Shown in pieces: positions 4,808-24,781 of a stretch of 49,073 bases of DNA. The stretch is taken from IMG/VR virus record IMGVR_UViG_3300044952_001066, positions 1 through 49,073 of that record, one strand, 5' to 3'. The notes under the pieces were generated by a model, which worked only from the letters and a program-made list of their open reading frames with translations, ran no database searches and had not been told where the DNA came from. This DNA is from a virus. The position numbers were made by a program, and so were the translations under genes. Every line of letters starts with the position of its first letter. The first letter of the stretch is position 1.

Positions 4808-6643
4808 TCAAGAGTTTTGGGTGGGTTCAGCTGAGGTTTCAGCCTGTGTATTTTTGTAGATTTCCTCACCCAGCTTCATGGAGATTTCACTAAGTTTTGT
4901 AGTTTCTTTCTCAATGATTTCAACATCCTCTCCGTCTAATACATGACGCAACGTAGCTAACTGGGGTTCAGCTTCTGCACGAAGTGTTTCAGAGATTTTG
5001 TCGACATTTTCCTTAAGCACCCGCTCTACTGAAGCGATAACGCCATCAGCATTGTTGCGTGCATCTGCAACGCGCCGACGCTCCTGGTCCGCTGCTTCGT
5101 TTTCTTCAGCTTGACGGATCATTTCTAAAATCTCAGCCTCTGACAGTCCACCGTTTGCTTGGATGGAGATTTGTTGAGTTTTGCCAGTGCCCTTGTCTTG
5201 TGCACTGACAGTGACAATGCCATTCGCATCAATATCAAATGCTACGGCGATCTGGGGGCCGCCGCGCGGTGCTGGTGGAATGTCTTTGAGGTCAAATTGA
5301 CCTAGCGATTTATTATCTCGCGCCATACTTCTCTCACCTTGGAACACTTTGATAGTAACTGCCTGCTGGTTGTCTTCAGCAGTACTGAAAACTTGTTCCT
5401 TTTTGGTTGGGATCGTGGTGTTCTTTTCGATGAGTTTGGTGAACACACCTCCCATTGTCTCAATTCCTAGGCTAAGTGGAGTCACATCCAGCAGCAGCAC
5501 ATCCTTCACATCACCTTGCAGAACACCAGCCTGCACAGCCGCACCAATAGCCACAGCCTCATCTGGATTTACAGAGTGGTTGGGCTCCTTGCCAAAGAAG
5601 TCTCGGATGGCTTGGCGCACTGCTGGAATACGTGTGGTGCCACCAACGAGGATAATCTCTTTTATCTCATTTTTGTTGATTGATGCATCCTTAAGTGCCG
5701 CCTGGCACGGGGCTATGATGCGCTTCACAAGATCAGAGGTCAGCTCTTCGAACTTTGCACGAGAGAGCTTCACCAACAGATGTTTGGGACCAGAAGAGTC
5801 AGCTGTGATATAAGGCAAGTTGACTTCAGTTTCACTAGTGCTGCTGAGTTCAATCTTTGCACGCTCTGCGGCTTCACGCAAACGTTGCACAGCCATTTTG
5901 TCCTTCCGGAGATCTAGCCCTTGGTCACGCAAGAACTCTTGAGCAAGATAGTCTGTTACTCGGGCATCAAAATCCGCACCACCAAGATGTGTATCACCAT
6001 TGGTGCTGAGCACCTCTACAACACCACTACCAATATCTAGTACACTGACGTCATGTGTGCCACCGCCTGAATCCACAACAATTACCTTGCCATCACCACC
6101 TTTGTCAGTGCTGAAAGCTAGAGCTGCTGCTGTGGGTTCATTTATGATACGCATCACTTCAAGTCCAGCAATGCGGCCAGCATCTTTTGTTGCCTGTCGT
6201 TGTGCATCATCAAAATATGCAGGTACTGTCAGAACAGCTTGGGAGACTTTTTTCCCCAGATAGGTTTCTGCCGTTTCTTTCATCTTCAACAGCACCTGAG
6301 CGCCAATCTCAGCTGGACTGCGAGCCTGACCTCGGGTTTCTACCCATGCATCGCCATTGTCAGCCTTGACAATTTTGTAAGGTAGTGTTTTCATATCTGC
6401 TGCGACTGATGGATCCGCAAAGCGCCGACCAATCAGGCGCTTGCTTTCAAAAACTGTGTTTTCGGGATTTGTAACAGCCTGTCGTTTGGCAGCTTGTCCA
6501 ACCAGTTGTTCCTTGTCAGTCCAAGCCACAATGCTGGGGGTTGTGCGTGCACCTTCTGCGTTTTCAATTACGCGAGCTGTGCCATTTTCCATAATGGCCA
6601 CGCATGAATTCGTAGTTCCAAGATCTATCGCAATGATAGTCAT
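4808..6643 (-). CDS. dnaK: DnaK (Hsp70) chaperone
   Basis: 611 aa, near full length (E. coli DnaK has 638). The nucleotide-binding domain has phosphate-1 [12 protein letters not shown] (residues 5-16), connect NEPTAAALA, phosphate-2 [12 protein letters not shown], and adenosine motif [12 protein letters not shown]. The substrate-binding domain follows ([40 protein letters not shown]), then a helical lid. Phosphate-2 departs from the usual DLGGGTFDVS (Leu to Ser, Phe to His), which may alter ATP handling. The C-terminus lacks an EEV-type tail. No dnaJ or grpE is nearby, so it presumably uses host cochaperones. AAGGAGA precedes the ATG. Sequence style is alphaproteobacterial, suggesting capture from a host; likely role is folding of phage proteins. 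Confidence 0.97.
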
Positions 6644-22936: not shown

Positions 22937-23623
22937 TTATTCTCGATCACCAATCAAGTTGAGGAGCAGCTGAAAGATGTTGATGAAGTTCAAGTAGAGA
23001 CTTAGTGCCCCATACAAACTGCTTTTGGCAGGACTGTCAAATCCAAACACTTCACCATTGCTGTAGTAATCATTCTTCAAGTTTTGTGTGTCGTAAGCCG
23101 TGAGCCCCACAAACACAATAACGCCAATAATGCTCACAACAAAGGTCAAGATTGAACTGGCTAGCCAAATGTTTACAACACTGGCTATCAATACTCCAAT
23201 CAGGCCCACCATCAAGAAAGTACCCATGCTTGTGAGGTCACGGGAGGTAGCATAACCATACACGCTGGCAGCACCAAAAGTGGCACTGGTAATGAAAAAC
23301 ACAGTGGCAATACTAGTGCCAGTGAACTTGAGGAAAATTGTGCTCATGCTCAATCCCATGCTGACAGAAAATAGCCAAAACAGGAGATTGGCTGTGCTGT
23401 AGCTGAGTCGTTCAATACCAAAACTCAACACCAACACAAATGCCAAGGGCAAGAGCATAAGGCCAATGCCTGTCCATCCTGTCATGAGAGCGGCAAAAAA
23501 TTTAGATACCAGCCAAGCTGTAGCTCCTGTTACAACCAAGGCGGCTGTCATTCGATTGTAGATGCCCAGCATGAACGTTCGAAGTCCGGCGTCATAACTG
23601 GAGTCGGCAGCAAGTGTGTTCAT
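22937..23623 (-). CDS. Bax inhibitor-1 / YccA-like membrane protein
   Basis: 228 aa with seven hydrophobic helices. The family signature near the last helices is present: GVIVFVGLTAYDTQNLKN, with the Asp of YDTQ and a late Asp in the final segment. BI-1 relatives are inner-membrane proteins; bacterial YccA modulates the FtsH protease, and others leak calcium or protons. The N-terminus (YDAGLRTFMLGIYNRMT) matches alphaproteobacterial members. AAAGGAA precedes the ATG. It lies directly downstream of the tmRNA on the same strand and ends at a strong terminator. A role in controlling host membrane proteolysis or delaying lysis is speculation. Confidence 0.93.
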   Translation of the reverse strand: MNTLAADSSYDAGLRTFMLGIYNRMTAALVVTGATAWLVSKFFAALMTGWTGIGLMLLPLAFVLVLSFGIERLSYSTANLLFWLFSVSMGLSMSTIFLKFTGTSIATVFFITSATFGAASVYGYATSRDLTSMGTFLMVGLIGVLIASVVNIWLASSILTFVVSIIGVIVFVGLTAYDTQNLKNDYYSNGEVFGFDSPAKSSLYGALSLYLNFINIFQLLLNLIGDRE

Positions 23624-23639
23624 TGTAATTCCTTTTAAA

Positions 23640-23908
23640 AGTGCAACCGCTTCTGTTCCAAGGAGGGTTGCCCTCCCGCTGAGACTATGCGGCTATTAGA
23701 CCGGTAGACTCAAATGCAACGTTGTTGTCGTTAGCATTTTTACGTTTAGAACTGTTCCCATCTCTGGGCGGCCATATCTCACCGAATGCCTCCTTCAACC
23801 CTTACTGCCTGCAATCGATCCTATTTCATCCCCGTTTGGTGGAGATGCGGAAGCACTGCCCTCCCGGTCTTGCATAGCCTATTTGATTGCTATCAACAGC
23901 ATCACTTC
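23640..23908 (-). ncRNA. ssrA: circularly permuted tmRNA
   Basis: Read on the - strand: the acceptor piece comes first and ends CATCTCC-A-CCA (CCA at 23839-23837). A 3-nt linker AAC follows, then the coding piece starts GGGGATG (from 23833), which pairs with CATCTCC over 7 bp and includes the G3-U70 wobble and A73 needed for alanylation. GGATCGATTGCAGGC follows, matching the D-like region of tmRNAs. GTAAAAATGCTAACGACAAC introduces the tag frame (23735-23685) coding ANDNNVAFESTGLIAA and TAG. Downstream, a GGAGG/CCTCC stem and GCAACC/GGTTGC pairing can form a pseudoknot. The T-arm (about 23858-23847) lacks a usual TTCRA loop. Outer ends are estimated. Permuted two-piece tmRNAs are typical of alphaproteobacteria and some cyanobacteria. 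Confidence 0.92.
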
Positions 23909-23910
23909 CT

Positions 23911-23938
23911 AGTATATCAGGTATTCTTCAGTTGTCAA
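23911..23938 (-). promoter_or_regulatory. sigma70-type promoter of the tmRNA
   Basis: TTGACA (23933-23938), 16-nt spacer and TATACT (23911-23916) lie on the - strand, placing the transcript start near 23904. This is only a few bases after the end of the preceding gene. Confidence 0.85.
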
Positions 23939-23941
23939 CCA

Positions 23942-24781
23942 TTAGGTTGGTGGTGTGCCAAATTGTGCCACGGGTGACCCCTGTTGTGCTGCGGCAAGAC
24001 AGGGATTCACTCCGGAAACACTGCGACTGAAGCCAGATGCAAATCCAGATGTTAATGCTGTTGTGATATTTTGTGTTTCGCGAGCTACTGCTCCTGTAAC
24101 TTGGCTTATACCAGCGCCAATGGTGCCTAGCAAGCTGCTGACCCCACTTATGGCGCCAGTGAGTACTCCCACAGCACTCCTTACAACTCCAGCAGCAGCT
24201 TGTACAACAGCAGAAATGCCACCCACAACTGCCCCAATCAAGCCAGAAATGGCAGAGGTTATAGCCCCAATTATGCGTGCAGGGATACTTACAAGAGCTC
24301 CTACAAATTGGCCTATAGCACTAGTAATAGATCCCAATGTGTCGTTGTATCGGCCTTGTATGGTTCCTATGTAATCACCAACAGTAGCACACCTACTGGG
24401 ATCTTGTGCTCTACCTGGTTGAAAAAAGTCATTTATTGCCCGAAATATTCGCGTACCGTCATCCACAATCCTGTCTCTATGACTTGCCAACAGTGTGCCA
24501 AAGCCGCCTATTTGGCCAACAGCTTGCAATGGTCCCAAGCTCTGTTGCACTGCCCTCTGAGCGTCAGGATCATTGGCTGCGGCTGCTTGTGCAGCTTGTA
24601 TAGCATCATTTATAGCTACTACTTGAGGTTGATTAGCATCTTCGTTAATCTGTCTAACCAATCGATCATAGGCCGGATTGACTCGAGGTGGTGGTAGATC
24701 CTCAATTTGTATACTCGCTATTTCATTAGGGGTTGCTATGACATTGAAGGCCACATACCCGCCGTCTCGCTCACCAGCCAT
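23942..24781 (-). CDS. Gly/Ala-rich hydrophobic virion-like protein
   Basis: 279 aa. The N-terminal half is polar and helical (RLVRQINEDANQPQ, AIQAAQAAAANDPDAQRAVQ). From about residue 145 there is a long series of Gly/Ala/Ser/Ile segments with glycine-zipper spacing (ARIIGAITSAISGLIGAVVGG, GAISGVSSLLGTIGAGI), able to pack as membrane-active or coiled helices. Such proteins occur among phage structural or DNA-ejection proteins; that role is inferred. A late-type TTTAAATA core and AAAGGAGAAC precede the ATG. Confidence 0.7.
   Translation of the reverse strand: MAGERDGGYVAFNVIATPNEIASIQIEDLPPPRVNPAYDRLVRQINEDANQPQVVAINDAIQAAQAAAANDPDAQRAVQQSLGPLQAVGQIGGFGTLLASHRDRIVDDGTRIFRAINDFFQPGRAQDPSRCATVGDYIGTIQGRYNDTLGSITSAIGQFVGALVSIPARIIGAITSAISGLIGAVVGGISAVVQAAAGVVRSAVGVLTGAISGVSSLLGTIGAGISQVTGAVARETQNITTALTSGFASGFSRSVSGVNPCLAAAQQGSPVAQFGTPPT

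Follow-up and report, generated by a model that had tools for sequence, protein, structure and literature searches.

The locus at positions 23905-23640 on the minus strand of the window, by which we mean the whole stretch of 49,073 nucleotides analysed, is a circularly permuted tmRNA gene on a phage contig, and it is very probably a functional permuted tmRNA (ssrA) gene. The data are best explained by a gene in working order, with a promoter of its own, in a large phage of an alphaproteobacterial host. Permuted tmRNAs are already known in phages, and a tiny spacer between the two halves also occurs in ordinary alphaproteobacteria; the 6-bp T-stem of this gene and the exchange of alleles with and without an encoded CCA are more unusual. 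Gene anatomy, covariation, synteny and a promoter-like site were obtained directly.

Identification of the gene

The covariance-model check suggested in the preliminary description, using cmscan on the window locus, gave two matches that exceed the curated cut-offs: the Rfam family tmRNA_permuted (RF04321) at 75.4 bits (E = 9.2e-13; cut-off 47) and alpha_tmRNA (RF01849) at 68.3 bits (E = 1.2e-16; cut-off 50). At the gathering cut-off these are the only Rfam matches of the window, with no riboswitch family among them. Together with synteny, covariation and the presence of virion-structural and replication genes on the contig, they bear out the view that a phage encodes a permuted tmRNA here. 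The scores (68-75 bits) lie far under those of cellular tmRNAs. ARAGORN did not detect the gene, and a nucleotide search for the window across 50,697 phage records gave no match. An unconstrained fold of the locus recovered the P2, T-arm and acceptor helices with an acceptor loop of 7 nt; the folding energy was no better than that of shuffled sequences (z = -0.08) and is uninformative.

Gene structure

A candidate sigma70-like promoter (23911-23938, minus strand) consists of TTGACA (23938-23933), a 16-nt spacer and TATACT (23916-23911). It was recognized by consensus match alone (11 of 12 positions) and is the sole promoter-like site within 23500-24100. In the related contig L010 the TTGACA and the 16-nt spacing are preserved and the spacer sequence itself has diverged. 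The position of this candidate would put the putative transcription start close to where the acceptor piece begins. The near-consensus promoter and the 6-bp T-stem are features additional to those first described.

The acceptor piece (23841-23903, minus strand, as are all features of the gene) is supported by the RF04321 and RF01849 matches, with coordinates verified, and its pairs covary. It carries P2 strands (GATGC, 23903-23899; CAATC, 23889-23885), the T-stem CGGGAG/CTTCCG (23866-23861/23853-23848) around the T-loop GGCAGTG (23860-23854), and the acceptor 3' strand CATCTCC (23847-23841). The discriminator A73 (23840) and an encoded CCA (23839-23837) follow, so that these four bases occupy 23837-23840. 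An intervening AAC (23834-23836), identical in L010, is presumed to be removed on maturation. The coding piece begins with the acceptor 5' strand GGGGATG (23827-23833), which forms all seven pairs with CATCTCC, G3 opposite U70. The D-like region (23785-23826), supported by the Rfam matches, covariation and the sequence, includes the 3' strands of P2 (GGTTG, 23800-23796; GCATT, 23789-23785).

The tag reading frame (23685-23735) runs GCT AAC GAC AAC ... TAG and encodes ANDNNVAFESTGLIAA, with an alanine codon first and a short hydrophobic tail before the stop codon (23687-23685). At the equivalent place L010 encodes ANDNNVALALAA, again followed by a stop. Upstream of the tag the first stem of PK1 is aligned by RF04321; a second PK1 stem was not found by eye in the window locus. 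Downstream, inspection for complementarity located an H-type pseudoknot (23643-23677) with stems S1 (GGGAG/CTCCT) and S2 (GCAACC/GGTTGC) linked by a conserved GGAACAGAA. In the related L280 S1 differs and S2 is longer (GCAACCAG/CTGGTTGC) and still paired.

The preliminary description had thus read the gene correctly in most respects. Every letter of its junction CATCTCC-A-CCA-AAC-GGGGATG was verified, as were the acceptor stem of 7 bp and its G3-U70 pair, A73, CCA, the D-like region, the tag frame and the downstream pseudoknot. Its placing of the 3' (acceptor) half upstream of the 5' (coding) half, with a spacer between them, agrees with both the letters and the Rfam models.

Length of the spacer

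The proposal that a 3-nt spacer is exceptional did not hold: cellular alphaproteobacteria and several other viral contigs repeatedly have spacers of 2-6 nt. We found the junction motif CTCCACCA-N(0-12)-GGGGNNGAAANNGG a single time in the window and in none of 100 shuffles. Among viral contigs we identified true permuted tmRNAs whose spacers measure 2, 3, 4 or 5 nt, besides many of 7-12 nt. The same pattern in cellular genomes identifies alphaproteobacterial ssrA genes with spacers of 2-6 nt, and a cellular permuted tmRNA with a 3-nt spacer is found in Roseomonas sp. KE0001 (Acetobacterales). On alpha_tmRNA, nine loci in cells with spacers of 2-3 nt, Roseomonas sp. KE0001 among them, reach 203-311 bits, so a short spacer is compatible with chromosomal ssrA genes.

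For a class-wide view we drew 385 alphaproteobacterial genomes, centred on one Roseomonas genome, with a pattern that reaches spacers of up to 30 nt. Among the 80 matches listed, two coding-sequence-like matches having been left out, the median spacer is 18 nt, and the true median is greater because the pattern stops at 30 nt. Spacers of 3 nt or less occur in three of the 80 matches listed, one of them the Roseomonas genome, and spacers of 6 nt or less in 11. Spacer length thus varies freely, and very short spacers recur at one end of the range. How a tiny spacer is processed is a real question, which belongs to the whole class and is not peculiar to this phage. Five zero-spacer candidates (L016, L046, L047, L095 and L105) match the pattern and were rejected as coding sequence; their acceptor stems are unpaired and the three tested had no Rfam match.

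The 6-bp T-stem

A tmRNA usually has a 5-bp T-stem and an acceptor/T stack of 12 bp, a usual feature and not a defining one. The window gene has a 6-bp T-stem and hence a stack of 13 bp. A pattern scan for 6-bp T-stems returned 49 viral stretches with 30 distinct, fully paired T-arms, and in 17 of these 30 a complementary acceptor strand lies downstream. When 12 of the remaining T-arm loci were passed through cmscan, six matched the model for one-piece tmRNA and two that for the permuted form; four had no tmRNA match. The 6-bp pattern was absent from all 240 alphaproteobacterial genomes searched, 193 of which matched the 5-bp pattern. When the loop was restricted to GGCAGTG, we counted 10 distinct 6-bp T-arms in viral contigs versus at least 48 distinct 5-bp T-arms (80 of 98 stretches listed). 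Fisher's test of 6-bp versus 5-bp (1.5e-9) is a guide only, the viral 5-bp count being a lower bound and relatedness being ignored. We did not count the 6-bp T-stem as excluding membership of the family, because it is recurrent in viral tmRNAs, several of which pass the Rfam cut-offs. Viral tmRNAs with this T-stem, permuted and one-piece, are L229, L230-L232, L234, L239, L241, L242, L245-L249, L255, L257, L258, L262-L265, L267, L272 and L273. A text search of the literature on T-stem length in tmRNA found nothing.

ARAGORN recovers one of the 17 viral permuted genes whose T-stem has 6 bp, versus 48 of 75 with a 5-bp T-stem among the matches listed. Its failure on the window gene fits better with the T-stem than with spacer length. 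Spacer length as the cause was ruled out, as ARAGORN detects most genes with 2-6 nt spacers. This contrast in recovery makes undercounting possible: phage ribosome-rescue RNAs may fall into an annotation blind spot of software built around a T-stem of 5 bp.

The 13-bp stack deviates from the usual 12 bp, as might be expected of a decoy that binds host SmpB, is improperly matured or charged, and so blocks ribosome rescue in the host. There is precedent in the phage DS6A tmRNA, which consists of the tRNA-like domain (TLD) only, and in a similar tmRNA-inhibiting molecule (PMC4131195, PMC11915505). The window gene nevertheless retains the tag frame, the alanine identity pair, the CCA and the 3' pseudoknot, and the tag varies among relatives yet stays open, whereas a decoy would need no tag. 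We regard an inhibitory role as unlikely and favour a functional tmRNA.

Four further loci (L243, L250, L251 and L270) have an alpha-like T-arm and CTCCACCA with a terminator-like hairpin and T-run close behind. L243 and L251 have no Rfam tmRNA match. Judged by their sequences, the four are possibly unusual tmRNAs or stand-alone acceptor pieces.

Covariation and synteny in related phages

The tmRNA is followed by a gene for a Bax1-I (BAX inhibitor/YccA-like) membrane protein (22937-23623, minus strand; Pfam PF01027, E = 3e-52), which is syntenic in relatives. We used this protein, a handle independent of the RNA, to reach those relatives. The tmRNA lies directly upstream of the Bax1-I gene in L277-L281, which come from independent metagenomes, and about 1 kb upstream of it in L282. 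A Bax1-I relative of 97% identity is on a 329-kb contig.

The Bax1-I start codon is about 20 nt past the end of the tmRNA and no terminator was found between the two, so co-transcription is possible and the region might be merely a structured 5' leader of the Bax1-I mRNA. A leader would not account for matches to tmRNA models that include the tag and the acceptor junction, nor for the distance of about 1 kb in L282, and we give this reading hardly any weight beside that of a tmRNA gene.

Covariation was assessed in the window and in six contigs found by way of Bax1-I, seven sequences in all. Of the cells in the proposed helices 92.6% are paired, versus 34-44% when the partner strand is slid by 1-3 columns, and both sides have changed in 21 of 29 pairs. 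G3-U70 is retained in all seven phage tmRNAs, even where the acceptor stem differs, as in L281 (GTGGGTA/TACCTAC) and L282 (GGGCCGG/CCGGTCC). Covariation and the invariant G3-U70 together indicate selection on both the structure and the alanine identity pair.

The window and L277 share 97-100% identity over 24400-22937, except at 23941-23880 (92-95%) and in the tRNA-like segment (23879-23795). This segment is 77% identical to that of L277 and 100% identical to that of L010, and outside it L010 is mostly 51-91% identical to the window. The mosaic of window, L277 and L010 implies that the tRNA-like segment was exchanged by recombination. A search for the donor of the L277 segment returned only the contigs of L277 and L278 themselves.

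These comparisons bear on whether the locus might be a degraded remnant of an ssrA gene from a host, left for example by imprecise excision and out of use. Genomic islands commonly integrate at ssrA, and a remnant would fit both the covariance-model scores under those of cellular copies and the second PK1 stem that was not found by eye. Against it are the compensatory changes among phages, the near-consensus promoter, the intact tag in related contigs, and a TLD that is 100% conserved between the window and L010 amid surroundings of 51-91% identity. A remnant is very improbable, and a gene in use accounts better for this conservation.

The encoded CCA is absent from L277 (2722-2939), L278 (2722-2939) and L280 (2701-2900). 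The junction reads A-GAATTT-GGGG in L277 and A-GAGATC-GGGG in L280, and the acceptor loop is 7 nt in the window, L010, L277 and L280. The flanks of the L277 and L278 tmRNAs are nearly identical to those of the window. A nucleotidyltransferase belonging to the CCA-adding/poly(A) polymerase family is encoded on the 329-kb contig of L277. Other phage contigs, some of 289-453 kb, also bear a permuted tmRNA gene of this family. The window and L277, a near-identical pair that differs in the tRNA-like segment and CCA, amount to a natural experiment on the cutting of a minimal-spacer precursor.

We tentatively put forward a broader idea, which we think improbable as it stands: phages may repeatedly have evolved a 13-bp acceptor/T stack that cells avoid, and may swap tRNA-like segments with and without CCA through recombination, the 7-nt acceptor loop being kept. 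If true, this stack and segment exchange would point to selection on the handling of phage RNA by host RNase P, tRNase Z, SmpB or EF-Tu.

Two permuted tmRNA loci occur in L281 (1857-1988 and 2605-2892), about 0.7 kb apart; the first is apparently a tRNA-like domain alone, without a tag and with a spacer of about 90 nt. L355 and L356 (357 and 289 kb) carry a permuted tmRNA of beta type together with Bax1-I, so contigs that bear this gene include the beta type as well as the alpha type.

The phage and its host

The window is a 49-kb fragment that encodes virion structural and baseplate-like proteins, a primase, a DnaB-like helicase, a class I ribonucleotide reductase, a type II topoisomerase and an endolysin-like protein. 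An Hsp70 (DnaK-like) protein is encoded at 4808-6643. The topoisomerase subunit is nearest to those of the jumbo phages Sinorhizobium phage Phosso and Agrobacterium phage Atu_ph07, and an alphaproteobacterial host is likely on such sequence evidence.

Full ClpX-family proteins are encoded in jumbo phages (W01, 380992-382206; W02, 834-2057; G005, 87422-88609). A permuted tmRNA and a ClpX-like protein occur together in Phosso and in G005, which suggests that tagged products may be sent to a phage-influenced protease. The window fragment and G001 have weak AAA matches.

Proposed maturation and function

We infer transcription, cutting, charging, tagging and the benefit to the phage as follows. 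One precursor would be transcribed, and its tRNA-like domain would fold with A-CCA-AAC as a 7-nt loop that closes the acceptor stem. A cut by host RNase P just ahead of G1 would free the coding piece and leave CCA-AAC on the acceptor piece, and host 3' exonucleases would trim AAC to expose the CCA. We put the chance that the cuts follow this order at about even. An encoded CCA is expected to inhibit tRNase Z; relatives without CCA would require tRNase Z and CCA addition.

Alanyl-tRNA synthetase would charge the RNA through G3-U70, and host SmpB would carry the charged RNA to stalled ribosomes for addition of the tag ANDNNVAFESTGLIAA. No SmpB was found in the window fragment or in the eight relatives searched, so the phage would have to borrow that of the host. 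The most likely function is host-SmpB-dependent ribosome rescue during infection. A possible benefit to the phage is that ribosomes stay available during the breakdown of host RNA.

Comparison with known systems

The window gene resembles RF04321 and RF01849 in gene order, the acceptor stem with G3-U70, CCA, P2, the tag frame and the 3' pseudoknot. It differs in its 6-bp T-stem, in a spacer at the short end and in a score under those of cellular members. The permuted model used here is that described together with 79 bacteriophage tmRNA sequences of all forms (PMC11915505), and processing of a permuted tmRNA into two pieces is documented in Orientia (PMC7335160).

Two-piece tmRNAs of phages have been published as 53 unique structures; those of phage Melnitz and marine phages are, like the window gene, phage-encoded, permuted and of alphaproteobacterial type, and the Melnitz tmRNA has a proposed role in maintaining the hijacked machinery (PMC9004378). 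Melnitz has a glutamine riboswitch alongside its tmRNA; the window gave no riboswitch match at the gathering cut-off.

Phosso (PV764938), an alphaproteobacterial jumbo phage, offers the nearest isolate match to the window topoisomerase. We located an unannotated permuted tmRNA in it (PV764938.1, 349596-350198; L354, 1501-2103; RF04321, 113 bits), which differs from the window gene in its 410-nt spacer, its 5-bp T-stem and the lack of an annotated adjacent Bax1-I gene.

Permuted tRNA genes of crenarchaea and algae likewise have their halves swapped around the acceptor, and removal of the 1-nt spacer of the permuted Thermofilum pendens tRNA-Tyr has been called an open question (PMC3978253). Those tRNAs are religated to one piece, whereas the tmRNA remains in two.
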